Positions 41,641 through 49,256 of a stretch of 64,000 nt of DNA are shown piece by piece; position 1 is the first letter of the stretch, and the number at the start of each line of letters is the position of its first letter. Under the pieces are notes generated by a model. That model was given only the letters and a program-made list of their open reading frames with translations, made no database searches and was not told where the DNA came from. The DNA is from Hyphomicrobiaceae bacterium (GTDB lineage: Bacteria > Pseudomonadota > Alphaproteobacteria > Rhizobiales > Aestuariivirgaceae). Location: assembly GCA_900298995.1 (NCBI GenBank), contig OMIC01000005.1:1-64000 (forward strand), given 5' to 3'. Both the position numbers and the translations under genes were made by a program.

Positions 41641-41700
41641 GATATGGTGGGGAGGAAAAGCAGGAGGGCCCAGGCGGGGCCCCAGCGGGAGAAGATCAGC

Positions 41701-42501
41701 GTGGCGGAGACAGCTGCGAAGCTCAATACCGACCGTCCGGTTGCAGTGCGGGTTGCTGGCCTTCACAAGAAATTTGGATCGCTCGAGGTCTTGAAGGGCG
41801 TATCGCTCAGAGCCCGTGAGGGTGAAGTCGTCTCAATGATTGGCGCCTCTGGGTCGGGTAAATCAACTTTCCTCCGCTGTATAAACTTTCTCGAGATGCC
41901 GACCGAGGGTGAGATTGAAGTGACAGGGGAGACCGTGTCCCTGACCCGGCACAAGGATGGAGATCTCCACCCGTCTGACCGCCGGCAACTGGAGCGGATC
42001 CGCACGAGGCTCGGGATGGTCTTTCAGAGCTTCAATCTCTGGCAGCACATGACCGTGTTGCAGAATGTCATTGAGGCGCCCGTTCATGTCCTCGGTCTTT
42101 CCAAGGCGGAAGCCGTCGATCGGGCCGAACGGTTGCTCCACAAAGTAGGGCTGTTTGACAAGCGCGACCAGTATCCGGCTTTTCTGTCAGGTGGACAGCA
42201 ACAGCGCGCAGCTATTGCGCGAGCGCTCTGCATGGAACCGAAAGTGATGCTGTTTGACGAGCCGACCTCGGCTCTTGATCCTGAACTGGTTGGCGAAGTG
42301 CTTCGGGTGATCCGCGATCTTGCGGAGGAAGGCCGAACCATGATCCTTGTGACGCATGAAATGAAATTCGCGCGCGACGTATCGAGCCATGTAATCTATC
42401 TCTACAAAGGGGTCATCGAAGAAGAAGGACCACCTTCACAAGTCTTTGGCGCGCCGCGAAGCGAGCGCTGCCGACAATTCGTGTCAACCATACATGGTTG
42501 A
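41701..42501 (+). CDS. Polar amino-acid ABC transporter ATP-binding protein
   Basis: 266 residues from GTG 41701 after GGGAGAAG; ATG 41644 in frame would add 19 basic residues. Walker A GASGSGKST (48-56), signature LSGGQ (162-166), Walker B MLFDEP (Asp186, Glu187), with SFNLWQHMT typical of the polar amino-acid (HisP/GlnQ) group. First gene of the importer operon. A weak promoter candidate, TTGCAG-N16-TATGGT (41621-41648), overlaps the terminator ahead of it and would fit the GTG start. Confidence 0.9.
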   Translation: MAETAAKLNTDRPVAVRVAGLHKKFGSLEVLKGVSLRAREGEVVSMIGASGSGKSTFLRCINFLEMPTEGEIEVTGETVSLTRHKDGDLHPSDRRQLERIRTRLGMVFQSFNLWQHMTVLQNVIEAPVHVLGLSKAEAVDRAERLLHKVGLFDKRDQYPAFLSGGQQQRAAIARALCMEPKVMLFDEPTSALDPELVGEVLRVIRDLAEEGRTMILVTHEMKFARDVSSHVIYLYKGVIEEEGPPSQVFGAPRSERCRQFVSTIHG

Positions 42502-42564
42502 AAGTACAAAGTTTTGAAAAACAGCTGGTGCCATGTCGGTACCCGCAAACAGGGAGAGAGAAAG

Positions 42565-43359
42565 ATGAAACTTACACGCCGTATTCTGATGGCTGCTGCC
42601 TCAGCAGCGATGCTTGCTGGTGTCTCGAGTGCAGCTTTGGCCGATATCAAATTTGGCGTCGCTGCGGAGCCCTATCCGCCGTTCTCGTCGAAGGACGCGT
42701 CGGGCAAATGGGTGGGTTGGGAAATTGACCTGATGAATGCTGTTTGCGAGCAGATGCAGGAAAAGTGTGAACTCGTTGAAGTTGCTTGGGACGGGATCAT
42801 TCCGGCGCTCACCTCGAAGCAGATCGATGTCATCTGGTCATCCATGTCGATCACCGCAGAGCGCAAGCAGACCATCGATTTCACCAATATGTATTACAAT
42901 ACGCCGACGGTGATCATTGGGGCCAAGAACGGTGATCTGGACATCACGCCCGAGCACCTCAAGGGAAAAGTGATCGGCGCTCAGGTATCGACGGTTCATG
43001 AGAAATACCTTCAGAAATATTACGCGCCAGCCGGGGCCGAGATAAAGACCTACGCGACGCAGGATGAGGCTAACAATGACCTGGCCGCCGGTCGCCTTGA
43101 TTATGTGCAGGCAGACGGATCCGCTCTGGATGCGTTCCTCAAGACCGAACAGGGCACCGCCTGTTGTGAGCTGAAGGGTCAGGTCAAGGACGACCCGGAA
43201 GTATTGGGCGAGGGCGTCGGTGGCGGTGTCCGCAAGGAAGACACGGCCCTGAAGGACAAGCTCAACGCCGCAATCGCCGAACTCGCCAAGGCCGGCAAGT
43301 TCGAGCAGATCACCGCGAACTATCCCGAACTCGTGGGGAAGATGGTTCTGCCGAAGTAA
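42565..43359 (+). CDS. Amino-acid ABC transporter substrate-binding protein (family 3)
   Basis: 264 residues from ATG 42565 after GGGAGAGAAAG; earlier in-frame starts precede the ribosome site. Signal peptide about 1-26 (ending ALA). Family 3 marks: FGVAAEPYPPFSSKD, WEIDLMNAVCEQM, WDGIIPALTSKQID and the hinge GADGS-type segment QADGSALDAF. An unusual Cys pair, ACCEL, lies near residue 200. The family binds polar or basic amino acids; ligand unclear. Confidence 0.9.
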   Translation: MKLTRRILMAAASAAMLAGVSSAALADIKFGVAAEPYPPFSSKDASGKWVGWEIDLMNAVCEQMQEKCELVEVAWDGIIPALTSKQIDVIWSSMSITAERKQTIDFTNMYYNTPTVIIGAKNGDLDITPEHLKGKVIGAQVSTVHEKYLQKYYAPAGAEIKTYATQDEANNDLAAGRLDYVQADGSALDAFLKTEQGTACCELKGQVKDDPEVLGEGVGGGVRKEDTALKDKLNAAIAELAKAGKFEQITANYPELVGKMVLPK

Positions 43360-43367
43360 GCAACAAC

Positions 43368-43398
43368 GAGAGCCCGCGATTGTAACCTGCGGGCTCTC
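43368..43398 (+). terminator. Hairpin behind the binding-protein gene inside the importer operon
   Basis: A 10-base stem GAGAGCCCGC/GCGGGCTCTC with an 11-base loop, nine bases after the stop codon. The following ACTTCC is not T-rich, so it is more likely to protect the upstream mRNA than to terminate fully. The plan repeats that of the ydcS-ydcT gap. Confidence 0.6.
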
Positions 43399-43414
43399 AC
43401 TTCCTATAGCCTAG

Positions 43415-44137
43415 ATGGCTAACAAACCCGGATTTCCGGAAATCTTGGCGCTCGGTCCTACGGGCTATGGCGACGAGATGCTTTGGGGAGCTGCAATGAG
43501 TGTGGCGATTGCCGTACTCGCTTATGCTCTCGGGCTTCTGATCGGAATAGTAGGCGCTCTCGTGAAACTCGAGGGCAGTGTTCTGTCCCGAAGCATTATG
43601 AATGGCTATACCACTCTGGTGCGGGCTGTTCCGGAACTCATCCTTATCCTGATCTTATACTACGCGGGCACAGCGACCCTGAACCAGTTGCTCGAGGGCG
43701 CTGGGTTCAGCGCTATGGCAATCAACGGTTTTGCCGCCGCAGTTCTCGTTCTGGGCTTTGTGCAGGGCGCCTATTCGACCGAGGTTCTACGGGCTGCGAT
43801 TCAGGCCATTCCCCTCGGTCAGATTGAGGCCGCCAAAGCCTATGGCATGTCACCCTGGTTGATGTTTCGGCGTGTCACGCTGCCGGCGATGCTTCCCTAT
43901 GCAATACCCGGCCTGGCCAATCTCTGGCTGATCGTGACCAAGGACACCGCGCTCATCGCCGTGGTTGGCTATACGGAACTGGCGTTGGCAACTCGGCAGG
44001 CTGCAGGCAACACGAAGATGTATTTCACATTCTTTCTGTCAGCTGGCCTGATTTATCTGATCATTACACTCGTGTCCCAGCGCATGTTTGGCATTCTCGA
44101 GTCGCACGTTCGGCGAGGGCAGCGGAGGCTCACATGA
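43415..44137 (+). CDS. Amino-acid ABC transporter permease, copy 1
   Basis: 240 residues, about five membrane helices, in the HisM/GlnP type permease family. The EAA loop is EAAKAYGMSPWLMFRRVTLP (about 150-169), with RAVPELILILILYY near residue 70. Pairs with the next gene to form the inner-membrane channel. It lies 55 bases after the binding-protein gene; only ten bases separate it from the next start. Confidence 0.9.
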   Translation: MANKPGFPEILALGPTGYGDEMLWGAAMSVAIAVLAYALGLLIGIVGALVKLEGSVLSRSIMNGYTTLVRAVPELILILILYYAGTATLNQLLEGAGFSAMAINGFAAAVLVLGFVQGAYSTEVLRAAIQAIPLGQIEAAKAYGMSPWLMFRRVTLPAMLPYAIPGLANLWLIVTKDTALIAVVGYTELALATRQAAGNTKMYFTFFLSAGLIYLIITLVSQRMFGILESHVRRGQRRLT

Positions 44138-44147
44138 GGCCGACTCC

Positions 44148-44948
44148 ATGAGTCTCAAGACCCTTAGACTGATCGCGAAGACGTTCGTCGTATTCGTTCT
44201 ATCGGCTATTTTGATTGGCCTGCTGTATTGGCTTTTCGCTGCCTCCCGCTGGGATTGGTTGGTGAAATATTTTCCGTTGCTGCTGAGAGGGCTGTGGCTC
44301 ACGGTACTACTGTGGGTGTTTTCCTGTGTTCTCGGTTTCATCCTTGCGGTTCCGATTGGCCTTGTGCAAGTGACTGGCCCAACGTGGCTGGCTGGCATCG
44401 CCCGAGGATTCTGCACCGTGATCCGCGGCACGCCACTTCTCCTCCAAGTGTGGCTGATCTACTACGGATTTGGATCACTATTTCCGCAGATTGCACAATA
44501 CTATCCGGCCTTTCGGCAGGATTTCATGTGGCTAATCCGGCTTGATGCGTTCTGGTATGCCCTGTTTGCGTTTACGCTGTCCTTTGCGGGATATGAGGGT
44601 GAGATCATGCGGGGCGCATTTCTTGGTGTGCCACGTGGTGAACTGGAAGCGGCTCGAGCCTTTGGCATGTCACCTTGGAAGGCGCTGATCCGCGTCTGGC
44701 TTCCGCGTGCTGTGCGGCTGGTACTGCCAACACTTGCGGGCGAGGTTGTACTCCAACTGAAATCGACGCCGCTTGCAATGACGGTCACTGTGATGGATCT
44801 CACGGGAGTAGTGCGAAATCGCATTACCCAGGATACGTATATCGTTTACGAACCGCTCATGTTGCTTGCGGTCATTTACATGTGTCTGACCTTCGTTGCG
44901 GTGTGGGCGTTTGGAGCAGTTGAGAGAATGGTGCCTCAGAAGCGATGA
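44148..44948 (+). CDS. Amino-acid ABC transporter permease, copy 2
   Basis: 266 residues from ATG 44148, just after the previous stop; an earlier in-frame start at 44088 lies inside copy 1. Five or six membrane helices; EAA loop EAARAFGMSPWKALIRVWLP; VIRGTPLLLQVWL near residue 90 is the family block. The TGA overlaps the next start (ATGA). Confidence 0.9.
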   Translation: MSLKTLRLIAKTFVVFVLSAILIGLLYWLFAASRWDWLVKYFPLLLRGLWLTVLLWVFSCVLGFILAVPIGLVQVTGPTWLAGIARGFCTVIRGTPLLLQVWLIYYGFGSLFPQIAQYYPAFRQDFMWLIRLDAFWYALFAFTLSFAGYEGEIMRGAFLGVPRGELEAARAFGMSPWKALIRVWLPRAVRLVLPTLAGEVVLQLKSTPLAMTVTVMDLTGVVRNRITQDTYIVYEPLMLLAVIYMCLTFVAVWAFGAVERMVPQKR

Positions 44949-46111
44949 TCGAAGAGTTTCTCCAAGGGCATTTGCCGGACCTGACTCGCATCAGGCGAGA
45001 TTTGCACGCTCATCCGGAGCTTCTGTTCGGGGAGATCCGCACTGCCAAGATAGTAGCTGATGAACTGTTCCGGTTGGGTTTTGAGGTGTCGACGGGTCTT
45101 GCCAAGACTGGCGTCGTGGGCACAATCCGCAACGGTTCGTCTAATCGGTCAATTGGCATCCGGGCGGATATGGATGCGCTTCCGATCCAGGAGCAGTCCA
45201 ATCGTCCTTACGTCTCCCGCTATGCTGGAAAGATGCACGCCTGCGGACATGACGGGCACACGACCATGCTTCTTGGCCTTGCGCGATATCTGTCTGAAAA
45301 TCGTAACTTCGACGGGACCGTCCACTTGATTTTCCAGCCGTCGGAAGAAGATGAAGGCGGTGCCTTTCGCATGATGGAAGATGGCCTTTTTCAGCGTTTC
45401 CCGTGCGACCGTCTGTTTGCCCTTCACAACTTGCCGGGGGAGCCTGAGGGGCAGATCCTCGTGAAGCCGGGGCCGATCACGGCCTCCTGCGATGTGCTGA
45501 CGATCGTTATTCAGGGTATCGGTGGCCATGGTGCTCTGCCCCACAGATCGGCCGATCCTATAGTTGCCGCATCGAGTCTCGTTCTTGCCCTCCAGACGAT
45601 CGTGTCGCGTAACAACGACCCCCATGAACCTGTCGTTGTTACGGTGGGAGCGATCAACGGTGGGTCCATGGCAACGGTGATCCCGGCGGAGGTAAAACTG
45701 CTTGTTGGAATTCGCACCGTGTCTCGGCCGGCACGGGAGATGGTTATGGGCCGCATCCGGGATATGTCCAATGCGCATGTACGTTCTTTTGGATGCACTG
45801 CCGAAGTGGACATGGGTATCGATAGCTGGAGCTATCCTGCGGGCGTCAACACAGCCGATGAGGCGGCTCTTGTTCGGGGAGTTGCCCTCGACATGGGACA
45901 GGATCCCCAGAAAGTCGACATGCGGGCGCCATTCATGTTTTCAGAAGACTTCTCCGCCATGCAGGAAGTGGTGCCATCCTGCTATTTCGGGCTGGGGGCG
46001 GGTCCGGGGCCGATGCTCCATGATCCCGGTTATGATTTTAATGACGCGCTTCTCGTGAAGGGACCAGCGTTCTGGGCGCGGCTTGTTGAGAAAGCACTTC
46101 CTCAGGCATAG
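44945..46111 (+). CDS. M20-family amidohydrolase (N-acyl amino acid or hippurate hydrolase type)
   Basis: 388 residues, cytosolic. M20D metallopeptidase pattern: RRDLHAHPELLFGE at the start, metal ligands in HACGHDGHT (about 98-106), EEDEGGA with the catalytic Glu pair near 135, and HGALPHRSADP in the dimerisation domain. The family frees amino acids from N-acyl or aryl conjugates. It is translationally coupled to the permease gene, so its substrate is probably what the importer brings in; that is inference. Its last ten bases overlap the end of the fusion gene on the other strand. Confidence 0.88.
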   Translation: MIEEFLQGHLPDLTRIRRDLHAHPELLFGEIRTAKIVADELFRLGFEVSTGLAKTGVVGTIRNGSSNRSIGIRADMDALPIQEQSNRPYVSRYAGKMHACGHDGHTTMLLGLARYLSENRNFDGTVHLIFQPSEEDEGGAFRMMEDGLFQRFPCDRLFALHNLPGEPEGQILVKPGPITASCDVLTIVIQGIGGHGALPHRSADPIVAASSLVLALQTIVSRNNDPHEPVVVTVGAINGGSMATVIPAEVKLLVGIRTVSRPAREMVMGRIRDMSNAHVRSFGCTAEVDMGIDSWSYPAGVNTADEAALVRGVALDMGQDPQKVDMRAPFMFSEDFSAMQEVVPSCYFGLGAGPGPMLHDPGYDFNDALLVKGPAFWARLVEKALPQA

Positions 46112-49080
46112 GGGCCTTCGAGGCCAAGTTCGCGCATGAGGCTGGCATAGGCGTTGAAATTTCGGACAAGCGATGCGCCATGACGCTCAATCAGCTGCCG
46201 CCGCTTATTGTCGGTAGTCGCGGTGGCAAGCGCACCCCAGATGGCCGTCATGGCCTCGCTCTGAGCCCTTGCCTTCTCTACCATCAGTTCTGTGGTCAGT
46301 GCTCTTGCGAGAGTCTGTGCCGAACACTTTCCGACGCCTGCGACCGTCAGCGGTCCGGCAAGGCTGTATCCGGGCGGAAGTTCCCCTTTCAGATTGATGA
46401 CCTCGCGGAAACGGATCGCGCGGGTTATCTGATCGACTGCTTGCTTGGCACCTTCAACTCGCGAGACATGTTCGGTATCGGCAGCGGCATGCGGCAGCAA
46501 TTCCACCCGATCTGGATACTTTCTTGCCAGAGGCAGGTAGGGAACCATGGGTCCAGACAATTCGCCAGACGTCTCGCCTACAAAAAGGTCGGCGTCGATT
46601 GCGGCATGTCGTACCTTTCCGGTGCCCATCGCGACATCGAGGGCGTCAGCATCCACGCATTCCCCGCGGTCATAATTGATCAGAACAGCACCGTCGCGCA
46701 GCGCCGACAAGACAGAAGCACTGACGACATTGGCGTTGGCATACTTGCCAGTTGCACCGTTGAGAGGTCCCAGCCCGGTGTGGACTGAAAGCACATCCGA
46801 GCCATTCGCTGCGTCTTCTGGTGTTGAAGCGTATATGAAGCCTTCGGATTCGATCCAGTCCTGGTGGCGGCTGCGTGCGTGTATTGCAACCTCCATTCCA
46901 AAGGCCTGGGCCAGTTTCGCCATCTCACGCCCGATATTCCCATAACCGATGATGGCCATGCGCTTGCCTTCAATCTTCTCCGTTGGAAAACGGCGAAGGT
47001 CGCGGCCGGTGTCGAATTGTCCTGCCGCCGTCAGGCGGTGCATCTCATCAACGGGCAGATCCGGCAGCACCCTGAGCAGGGCCTTGAAGGCCATCTGGGC
47101 AGTCGCCCTGCTGTTGAAGGAAGGCGTGTTCATCAGGGGGGCCTTACCCCCTTCGCCGTTTCCGCCACCCCAGGATGCTGAGCCCATGTTTCCGGTGCCT
47201 GCACCAATACGGACGCCTCCTTCGGGAAAGACTGAATCTCTCGGGAGGAAGGTGGCCGCTGCGATCACGGCATCATATTGCCCGTTTTCGGTCAGGGGCT
47301 TGATTTCGTCCGGTTTGGAAAGCTGCGGTTGATAGAAGAAGTGGATCCGACCTGTTTCGAGATTGTTGCGGCCATCCCATGCCTCCTCATGAAAGGCATC
47401 CCCCTGGGCTTCAACATGGGCTTTGACGGCGGAATGATCCGGTAACCCATCTTTGCCGAATTTGAGTCCGACATAATCACAGATCAGTACCTTGTAGGCC
47501 CGTGTCGGGTCGTCCCTTCGGACAGTGCCCGATTGCCTCTCTGGAGCGGGGAAGACGACGCCAAGCTTTACCAACTCTTCTTCCGCAACGACGATCCTCG
47601 CCCGGTGAAAAGCATACTTAAGGTTGTCCAGCAGGGCTGTTATTTCCTCAACAGGCCGGATGCCACCAATCCAGGCACGATAATCACCAGGTGTCCCCGG
47701 GAAGGCGTTGATGTAACGGGCGACATCCAAGCCTTGTTCATGCTCTCCGTTGGGGTGGGTGATTCCGTCATAGGACAAGAGCTGCTTGGACCGTGAGACG
47801 ATGCGGGCATGAAGCGAAGGATCGCCTGCTACGTCGTGCCGGACCTTGATCAGAGTGACAGCGGCTCCGCGGTTCTCGGCGTTGGATACCCCCAGTTCGA
47901 ACAGATTGGAATTACTGATCCACTCATTTACAGCACCGCGGTTTAGTTCCGAGCGCCGGTTGAGTTCGCGAACTGGACCGATCGTCTGCCCGACACGCCT
48001 GAGACCGAACGTGGTCTCGGCAAAAGCAAGGGTAGAAAATGTGTTGATGACCCCGCCCAGCATGCGGTTTTCCGAAGCATCATAGATCGGGCCGATCTTG
48101 ACTGTTCTGTCACCGGTGAGCGGACGCCTGGGGTCCACTGGAGCGGCCAGCTTGAACTGGCGGGGAATTGCCCAAGAGGGCTTCTGCTGGTTGTCATCGA
48201 TGAGGATCAAGGCCTGCGGGGTCAGGGAGATGACGTAGTAGCCCGAAACGCCGCCGATCGCCTTCTGGAATGGCATGAACAGACAGCATTTCGCCATGAC
48301 CTGCTGGACGATTGCATCGCCCCAGGGCATGGCGCCAAGCATCGATGTGGCGTCCAGGATGGCGTGGTGATCAACAGGGTTGCGGTCAATCCAGTCGAGC
48401 AGGTTCAGAATGTCGGCTCGTGAATAGCCGGTGGCCCCGGTGGTTTCGTGGCCGACACCGAAAAAAACCTTGATGCCAAGGCGCTCCAGCGTATCGGAAC
48501 TTGGGATGGCTCCCTCGGTCTTGGCAAAATGCAGACGATTCTCGTCGCCATTGCGGGCATAGCGCATCATCTCGATGATCTGTGCGCCCCAACTCTGCCG
48601 GAAGAAGCCGGCTGAGGCGGCTGCCTCGGTCTCAGGTTGTGGGGTGTCGATATAGACGTGCTGCACCGGGTCGTTGATCGAAAGGAAGTGCAGAGCGCAG
48701 ACCGTGAAACCGGAATGGCCGCCGCCCAGACCTACGGCAAGGCGGTTCATCTTCGGGAATTCGAAATAGCGATGGATCTCGTCCATCATGTCGAGAAGGA
48801 TCTTGTCGGCTGGATAACCACGGTGCATCGAGCGGCCGATTTCAGAGGCGGTGAAGCCGCCAATGTCTCGACCTGTGTCATCGAACTTGCGATAAGTCCG
48901 CTCAAGCCAGTGTTCGAAGGCAAATCGCAGGGAACGACCTTCGGCATCGTCACGGACCATGTCGGTGATGGGTCCCACGCCGAAAAACGGATTCTGAGTA
49001 CCGGGCGGGGGGCCGCCCGCAGTAGCCTCCAGAGAGGCCGCCCGGAGCTTCTTGAGTCGTTCGATCTGGTTCTGGTCCAC
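46102..49080 (-). CDS. Fusion of a SerC-like PLP aminotransferase and a SerA-like NAD-dependent dehydrogenase
   Basis: 992 residues from GTG 49080, five bases after GGAGG; eight more N-terminal residues are open but unsupported. Residues 1-500 form a fold type I class V aminotransferase like SerC, with HRGYPADKIL, the PLP Asp of ILDATSMLG and the PLP lysine Lys273 in PFQKAIGG. Residues 525-900 form a D-isomer 2-hydroxyacid dehydrogenase: NAD loop IIGYGNIG (710-717) and likely catalytic Arg805 (YDRGECVD), Glu836 and His864 (LLPHAAADT). The GRAGVG stretch of SerA is replaced by a Gly-rich insert with NMGSASWGGG. There is no ACT domain; the last 90 residues are helical and unknown. Substrate open. 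Confidence 0.85.
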   Translation of the reverse strand: MDQNQIERLKKLRAASLEATAGGPPPGTQNPFFGVGPITDMVRDDAEGRSLRFAFEHWLERTYRKFDDTGRDIGGFTASEIGRSMHRGYPADKILLDMMDEIHRYFEFPKMNRLAVGLGGGHSGFTVCALHFLSINDPVQHVYIDTPQPETEAAASAGFFRQSWGAQIIEMMRYARNGDENRLHFAKTEGAIPSSDTLERLGIKVFFGVGHETTGATGYSRADILNLLDWIDRNPVDHHAILDATSMLGAMPWGDAIVQQVMAKCCLFMPFQKAIGGVSGYYVISLTPQALILIDDNQQKPSWAIPRQFKLAAPVDPRRPLTGDRTVKIGPIYDASENRMLGGVINTFSTLAFAETTFGLRRVGQTIGPVRELNRRSELNRGAVNEWISNSNLFELGVSNAENRGAAVTLIKVRHDVAGDPSLHARIVSRSKQLLSYDGITHPNGEHEQGLDVARYINAFPGTPGDYRAWIGGIRPVEEITALLDNLKYAFHRARIVVAEEELVKLGVVFPAPERQSGTVRRDDPTRAYKVLICDYVGLKFGKDGLPDHSAVKAHVEAQGDAFHEEAWDGRNNLETGRIHFFYQPQLSKPDEIKPLTENGQYDAVIAAATFLPRDSVFPEGGVRIGAGTGNMGSASWGGGNGEGGKAPLMNTPSFNSRATAQMAFKALLRVLPDLPVDEMHRLTAAGQFDTGRDLRRFPTEKIEGKRMAIIGYGNIGREMAKLAQAFGMEVAIHARSRHQDWIESEGFIYASTPEDAANGSDVLSVHTGLGPLNGATGKYANANVVSASVLSALRDGAVLINYDRGECVDADALDVAMGTGKVRHAAIDADLFVGETSGELSGPMVPYLPLARKYPDRVELLPHAAADTEHVSRVEGAKQAVDQITRAIRFREVINLKGELPPGYSLAGPLTVAGVGKCSAQTLARALTTELMVEKARAQSEAMTAIWGALATATTDNKRRQLIERHGASLVRNFNAYASLMRELGLEGPYA

Positions 49081-49181
49081 GGAAGCCTCCTGCTTTGACG
49101 GCACGAATAAGGGCGTGCTGCCGCTGTCGGCTGCCCAAAGACGTCATGTCAGAAGGGGGATGCGCCAACAAGCTGTTAGTT

Positions 49182-49256
49182 TGGTGAGCCCGTCGGGGTT
49201 CGAACCCGAGACCCTCTGATTAAAAGTCAGATGCTCTACCACTGAGCTACGGGCCC
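49182..49256 (-). tRNA. trnK: tRNA-Lys (anticodon UUU)
   Basis: 75 bases including an encoded CCA. Acceptor GGGCCCG/CGGGCTC (one G-U pair), D arm GCTC/GAGC, anticodon arm TCTGA/TCAGA with loop CTTTTAA, T arm TCGGG/CCCGA with loop TTCGAAC. The anticodon TTT decodes AAA and AAG. The minus-strand gene has its own promoter; no clear terminator lies between it and the fusion gene 101 bases on. Confidence 0.97.

Follow-up and report, generated by a model that had tools for sequence, protein, structure and literature searches.

A SerC-like aminotransferase fused to a D-2-hydroxyacid dehydrogenase in Rhizobiales and other bacteria, with a proposed role in converting serine to D-glycerate

Glycine betaine and trimethylamine are important carbon and nitrogen sources in marine and plant-associated settings. 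In the serine cycle of Methylorubrum, Sga and Hpr carry out the same two consecutive reactions that we propose here for a single protein, as set out in PMC2948502. Glycine betaine raises the levels of serine-cycle proteins in marine bacteria (PMC12478193), and in Paracoccus aminophilus the serine-cycle genes are scattered, with hpr lying apart from the main cluster (PMC4543880). We analysed a window of 64,000 nucleotides (the whole stretch studied; positions 1 to 64,000 of contig OMIC01000005.1, assembly GCA_900298995.1, from a Hyphomicrobiaceae bacterium of the Rhizobiales), on the minus strand of which one gene fuses an aminotransferase to a 2-hydroxyacid dehydrogenase. With moderate confidence, we propose that its product is a bifunctional enzyme taking serine through hydroxypyruvate to D-glycerate in serine-cycle type metabolism; its substrates, NADPH preference, direction and hand-over of the intermediate are what we infer.

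The fusion of the two enzymes in one frame is real. The initial annotation had described a single 992-residue frame in which an aminotransferase is joined to a 2-hydroxyacid dehydrogenase; the frame was borne out, and the pairing is supported by the Pfam match of the dehydrogenase, by predicted structures and by profile alignments to the SerC and SerA-like proteins of the same genome. The GTG at 49080 is preferred as the start, as first annotated, over the one at 49104 because AGGAGG stands 5 bases ahead of it. Residue numbers follow the longer, 1000-residue reading (P0001) and equal those of the initial annotation plus 8. A search for two exact peptide patterns in 84,980 species genomes yielded 169 relatives, of which the best 80, 58-76% identical, were kept; 77 of these loci (L103, L140 and L141 were dropped) and the window's sequence make up the 78 full-length rows referred to throughout. 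Since these rows are without stops and the frame is kept full length across many genera, a frame error joining two genes was ruled out, as was chance. Smaller alignments comprised the window protein with relatives from 19 of the 24 loci L007-L030 (A1), and the window's own sequence with 39 of the 77 kept loci after an 88% identity filter (A2 and A3).

Table 1. Coordinates of the fusion gene, its parts and an associated protein (window positions unless a locus is given)
Feature	Coordinates	Strand	Remarks
Fusion gene	46102..49080	minus	GTG start, 992 aa
Longer reading of the fusion frame	46102..49104	minus	GTG at 49104, 1000 codons/1000 aa (P0001)
Ribosome-binding sequence AGGAGG	49086..49091	minus	Read from sequence; 5 bases before GTG 49080
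Aminotransferase half, predicted PSAT-like fold type I (P0001 ~29-507)	47584..49020	minus	Predicted structure, structure search, hhalign
D251, expected partner of PLP ring nitrogen	48352..48354	minus	Aligned with SerC DATS; D in 78/78 rows
K281, expected Schiff-base lysine	48262..48264	minus	Aligned with SerC QK; K in 78/78 rows
D-2-hydroxyacid dehydrogenase half (P0001 534-917)	46354..47505	minus	Pfam, predicted structure, structure search
GYGNIG dinucleotide-binding loop (P0001 720-725)	46930..46947	minus	G720, G722, G725 in 78/78 rows
R744, invariant Arg in loop expected to decide between NADP and NAD	46873..46875	minus	R in 78/78 fusion and 14/14 dehydrogenase-only rows
R813, expected catalytic Arg	46666..46668	minus	78/78 rows
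H872, expected catalytic His	46489..46491	minus	78/78 rows
C-terminal helical tail (P0001 918-1000)	46105..46353	minus	Model; comparison with dehydrogenase-only relatives
Downstream 436-476 aa protein, example	L138:4412-5830		Hosts are SAR324-, Nitrosomonas- and Deltaproteobacteria-labelled metagenome-assembled genomes

The first half is predicted to adopt the fold of phosphoserine aminotransferase (PSAT, SerC), with a model of good local and overall scores (predicted local distance difference test, pLDDT, 87.7; predicted template modelling score, pTM, 0.87). Its best structural match was Mycobacterium tuberculosis SerC (2fyf; Z 27.0, root-mean-square deviation 3.0 Å, 360 aligned residues), ahead of human alanine-glyoxylate aminotransferase (AGT; Z 24.6, 3.4 Å, 354 aligned), and hhalign against the genome's own SerC gave 96.8%. 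Pfam at E≤1 returned no match over this half, PF00266 (aminotransferase class V) included, the genome scan gave none to PF00266 either, and a PDB search with the profile of this half gave nothing at E 0.01. In NCBIfam the fusion remained sub-threshold for serC_2 (TIGR01365; 30.8 bits, cut-off 448.2) and for another phosphoserine transaminase model (46.6, cut-off 477), with no match to serine-glyoxylate or alanine-glyoxylate aminotransferase. The initial assignment of a class V pyridoxal phosphate (PLP) domain with Lys273 thus stood as to its fold, its PLP residues and that lysine, K281 here, which aligns with the SerC QK and is K in every row; the PF00266 family match did not appear.

The residues expected to serve PLP (K281, D251, W172 and T221) are invariant, as are H94, R95 and R476 in the 78 rows. 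R476 was aligned by hhalign to an arginine of the genome's own SerC that we take to bind the substrate carboxylate, the roles of the PLP residues being likewise assumed, and H94-R95 was matched by motif to the SHR of that SerC, which itself aligns with the SHR of human PSAT. Position 465, aligned to a second SerC arginine (YR) that presumably binds phosphate, is V, I or L in 78/78 rows.

In Pfam the second half matches PF02826, an NAD-binding domain, over residues 686-838 (92.1 bits, cut-off 25.1), with weaker matches to other Rossmann families and none to PF00389; it scores 68.5 bits against a cut-off of 454 for phosphoglycerate dehydrogenase (PGDH, TIGR01327). Its model (pLDDT 87.4) matched 4njo (Z 27.0) and 5aov (Z 26.6), and the 50 matches listed, at Z 24.8-27.0, did not separate PGDH, glyoxylate/hydroxypyruvate reductase, CtBP and phosphite dehydrogenase. 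The Rossmann loop initially placed at 710-717 (718-725 here) held, as did Arg805 (R813) and His864 (H872), whereas Glu836 (E844) had to be given up as a catalytic residue: glutamate stands there in only 2 of 78 rows and so cannot be the acid of the family, and position 842 is mostly K (47/78). D839, invariant among the fusion rows, may substitute for the absent glutamate. The claimed absence of an ACT domain also held, none being listed by Pfam at E≤1. The substrate-loop region (GTGNMG..WGGGNG) is rich in Gly and Trp and presumably unlike the SerA loop, and the region of what we take to be the phosphate arginines of Escherichia coli SerA, placed by eye, reads AAAT.

An arginine at the position of R744 presumably goes with NADP(H) in this fold, and its invariance makes NADP(H) the more probable cofactor over NAD. 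The genome's own SerA-like row lacks this arginine and two other 2-hydroxyacid dehydrogenases of its own have it, in a residue table whose outgroup column includes one row taken from the wrong strand. In dehydrogenase-only relatives of the same genus the match ends at residue 917 (six of seven) or 939 (one of seven), ahead of or within the tail.

We posited the route from serine to D-glycerate because transamination and reduction are the steps missing between serine and glycerate kinase, and it fits a SerC-like half without one phosphate arginine joined to a probable NADPH reductase. The N-terminal half would move the amino group of L-serine to 2-oxoglutarate or another keto acid, giving hydroxypyruvate; the C-terminal half would reduce this with NADPH to D-glycerate; and a glycerate 2-kinase, adjoining or elsewhere, would form 2-phosphoglycerate, within a serine-cycle type metabolism of bacteria living on glycine betaine or other methylated amines. 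The fused aminotransferase may use an acceptor other than glyoxylate, which would matter when glycine derives from betaine and not from glyoxylate. Two directions had been offered initially; the neighbours at some copies favour that from amino acid through keto acid to hydroxy acid and not the reverse.

A scan for selected neighbour proteins covered 127 loci (125 with the family, including 12 duplicate pairs, hence about 113 distinct), and the surroundings of the fusion proved highly varied. Three loci, L130, L146 (Marinomonas alcarazii) and L161 (G118), have an intact glycerate 2-kinase, called from DUF4147 and MOFRL above their Pfam cut-offs, immediately downstream of the fusion and on its strand, one of the hosts being a Rhizobiales isolate; in L130 the mechanically called kinase frame starts 3 bases past the fusion stop. 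Degenerate pieces of glycerate kinase occupy the same downstream spot in L104, L107 and L154. Identity between the L146 and L161 kinases is 55%, against 28-30% for either with that of L130, which makes two or more independent pairings likely; two are counted and not three because L146 and L161 have fusions from one group of the tree.

Three Sinorhizobium loci (L107, L113 and L157) display the gene order sga-mcl-mtkA-mtkB-BCCT-fusion, and in a deltaproteobacterial metagenome-assembled genome (MAG; L134) mcl-mtkA-mtkB stands divergently beside the fusion, its mtkA scoring above cut-off (692.6 against 604). Across the scan, mtkA with mtkB occurs in 8 loci and BCCT in 9 (in L109 at 633.1 against 650 for a betaine transporter). 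The names mtkB and mcl rest on position: by score the first is a succinate-CoA ligase alpha, and the second matches malyl-CoA lyase only weakly. In 8 distinct loci a GbdR-like regulator is encoded within 350 bases upstream of the fusion and in its orientation, at full length in L109, L110, L112, L142 and L164 and partial in L083, L104 and L116; two representatives score below the model cut-off (164 and 304 against 480).

Contig C46 (L160) of the genome from which the window comes encodes an aminotransferase resembling serine-glyoxylate aminotransferase (SGA) or BhcA (627.6, cut-off 650), MtkA above cut-off, an mcl-like lyase and an mtkB-like product, and no 2-hydroxyacid dehydrogenase (hpr) was found on that contig. 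A trimethylamine monooxygenase (809.3 bits, cut-off 675) stands beside these genes, and the genome is probably that of a methylated-amine user. In G079, of the same order, the fusion lies elsewhere in the genome and the cluster sga-mcl-mtkA-mtkB-glycerate kinase-ppc shows no 2-hydroxyacid dehydrogenase. An order-level survey located the family in 30 of 297 genomes, as 21 fusions, one copy split over two contigs and 8 dehydrogenase-only genes. No 2-hydroxyacid dehydrogenase showed in 12 of 19 mtkA clusters; of the 12 genomes concerned, 11 carry the family (8 fusion, 3 dehydrogenase-only), counts that include one dehydrogenase match of only 121 aa and one contig of only 6.7 kb. In support of the link, mtkA scored above cut-off in 13/21 fusion genomes, 3/8 dehydrogenase-only genomes and 3/17 without the family, the latter picked from those listed without a match in the 297-genome survey.

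Several results weigh against this proposal. The remaining 7 mtkA clusters do have a 2-hydroxyacid dehydrogenase, and because 5 of those 7 genomes carry the fusion, the fusion is not a simple replacement of hpr; absence of hpr from serine-cycle clusters is a weak test of its role. The difference in mtkA between the groups of genomes is uncorrected for their relatedness. The SGA-like aminotransferase of the same clusters leaves the fused one partly unexplained. An intact glycerate kinase adjoins the fusion in just 3 of the ~113 distinct loci, most copies, that of the window included, being without such neighbours; the pairing in L146 and L161, whose fusions share a tree group, may be one event; and the L146 kinase falls below the NCBIfam glycerate-2-kinase cut-off (169 against 550 bits). 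Mere presence of a MOFRL kinase is uninformative, because one was found in 44/46 genomes. The canonical Arg-Glu-His triad is incomplete in the family, its glutamate missing; the window's genome encodes at least 5 further 2-hydroxyacid dehydrogenases besides the SerA-like protein and the fusion; and no biochemistry on the fusion was found.

Among other readings, the one that survives best is that the fusion serves another set of amino acid, keto acid and hydroxy acid, for instance one involving a sulfonate or a compound derived from betaine, the serine-cycle neighbours being incidental. Diverse neighbours (beta-lactamase, 3-hydroxybutyrate dehydrogenase, aromatic or hydroxyproline genes), a substrate loop that presumably differs from that of SerA and the retained H94 and R95, which suggest an acidic group on one substrate, speak for it; we nevertheless consider it rather unlikely, as the glycerate kinase and sga-mcl-mtk contexts recur tightly, among the genes looked for, in hosts of different classes. 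The reverse direction, in which D-glycerate would be oxidised to hydroxypyruvate and aminated to serine as a non-phosphorylated serine route, draws on the established enzymology that both half reactions are in principle reversible, and on a SerC-like half being typical of serine synthesis. However, an adjoining glycerate kinase would drain the glycerate, R744 suggests NADP(H), the usual cofactor of reduction, and the genome already has its own serC and SerA-like gene, all of which render the reverse route improbable.

That separate pair also sets the fusion apart from ordinary serine synthesis. serC lies at G000:C39:262199-263287 (621.8 bits, cut-off 448.2) and is directly followed by a 641-codon SerA-like frame with a full PF00389 from 263343 and a PF02826 of 210.3 bits; the fusion is therefore extra to the serine pathway. 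The initial annotation had held that serine synthesis was not assured, and that absence of serA and serC elsewhere, together with complementation of both mutants, would reduce the fusion to the normal pathway: serC and a SerA-like gene are present, so this refutation fails, and the fusion also lacks an ACT domain and has V/I/L at the phosphate arginine position. The ordinary phosphorylated pathway was ruled out by this pair, the sub-threshold scores and the lack of an ACT domain. A spare copy of that pathway, with SerC and SerA fused, would explain why the serC-SerA-like gene order is that of the halves and why the closest structure is a SerC, but the serC_2 and PGDH scores, the absent ACT domain and position 465 leave it very little credence. 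That the dehydrogenase half alone is enzymatic, with the aminotransferase half a binding or regulatory domain, seems highly improbable given the invariant PLP residues, even with dehydrogenase-only relatives in 8 of the 30 family-bearing genomes.

Returning to the conversion of serine to D-glycerate, we tentatively extend it to a larger scheme: an undescribed serine aminotransferase-hydroxypyruvate reductase and one glycerate 2-kinase might form a two-gene module from serine to 2-phosphoglycerate, freeing the serine cycle from glyoxylate as acceptor, with direct hand-over of hydroxypyruvate, and passing across proteobacterial classes (and, going by MAG labels, to SAR324) as an accessory for life on betaine and methylated amines. 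If the proposed reactions are true, they would explain how the cycle is completed in some serine-cycle clusters without hpr, and would provide a natural fused cascade that is directly assayable. The aminotransferase half is invisible to annotation: 31 plasmid records hold ≥80% of the fusion, and records with the full-length gene name only an oxidoreductase, the genes listed reading 'NAD(P)-dependent oxidoreductase'.

The fusion is widespread among bacteria of soil and sea. In a survey of 61 genomes (the window's own and 60 relatives), full-length or near full-length copies were common in the same genus and also occurred in G054 (on a contig of 4.4 kb) and G058, which represent two further families. 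Named hosts among the best 80 of 169 relatives are Aestuariivirga, Gellertiella, Labrys, Kiloniella, Aestuariispira, Rhizobium, Sinorhizobium/Ensifer, Mycoplana, Shinella and Marinomonas, alongside MAGs labelled Roseovarius, Nitrosomonas, SAR324, Gamma- and Deltaproteobacteria. At the base of a dehydrogenase-domain tree stand dehydrogenase-only genes of the same genus that lack the tail, which suggests, with weak support, that the aminotransferase and tail were gained later than the dehydrogenase. Other dehydrogenase-only genes (Shinella among the hosts) are nested among fusions, which suggests, again at weak support (43-77 for the dehydrogenase-only groups, apart from three pairs at 100), that some arose by later loss of the aminotransferase half. 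Three same-genus genomes (L047, L048 and L054) have 396-398-aa dehydrogenase-only relatives in a tatB-tatC-serS-surE row; its genes were named in L047, and clustering matched those of L048 and L054 to them. G004 (L053) holds a tandem (2909-4741/4792-7767) of a fusion and then a 610-aa frame that matches the aminotransferase half only, at 58% identity to that of the window. An aminotransferase-only frame of Ensifer adhaerens (query 3-593) extends into the dehydrogenase half and looks truncated, and further partial pieces occur in G004 and G017.

Around the window's copy, an apparent (by eye) ABC transporter set with an M20-type amidohydrolase (41644-46111, plus strand) converges with the fusion gene, with a 10-base overlap at the end of the latter, and in 6-7 of the closest relatives the fusion also has related genes next to it. 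A tRNA-Lys (TTT) gene at 49182-49256 (minus strand) ends 101 bases upstream of the fusion start codon, and the same tRNA lies ~1.8 and 2.6 kb upstream in relatives L067 and L069. Mobility linked to tRNA genes was ruled out, such genes being found in 5 of 60 loci scanned and directly adjoining the fusion in none. In six loci (L123, L127, L131, L134, L138 and L141), a 436-476-aa protein is encoded 64-72 bases downstream of the fusion; its HNEVKPAN...DFDN presumably resembles the motif of aminoglycoside-kinase-like phosphotransferases, a likeness supported by no Pfam or PDB profile relative.

Each half belongs to a known superfamily, and in the open-licence literature searched we found no description of the fused combination, in agreement with the initial annotation, which knew of no characterised example. 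With SerC (TIGR01365; M. tuberculosis 2fyf/3vom) the first half has in common the fold, the PLP lysine and aspartate, the carboxylate arginine R476 and, by motif, H94-R95; unlike SerC, the fusion is longer, has a dehydrogenase attached, lacks one phosphate arginine and falls far short of the family score. With SerA/PGDH (TIGR01327) the second half has superfamily and fold in common, and differs in its score, the missing ACT domain and the AAAT presumed to replace the phosphate-arginine region. The hydroxypyruvate/glyoxylate reductases (5aov, 2gcg and 5j23, GhrB of Sinorhizobium meliloti) have the same fold (Z 24.8-26.6), Rossmann loop and catalytic Arg and His, and the arginine after the second strand is, as we assume, that of their NADP-using members, whereas the fusion is without the catalytic Glu and PF00389 and carries the Gly/Trp-rich loop, the C-terminal tail and the aminotransferase. 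Finally, the likeness to Sga and Hpr of Methylorubrum extends to the setting, with mtkA, mtkB, mcl-like and glycerate kinase genes at some fusion loci; the fusion differs in being one polypeptide with a SerC-like and not an Sga-like aminotransferase, and in that a separate Sga-like enzyme is also encoded in many of the same clusters.

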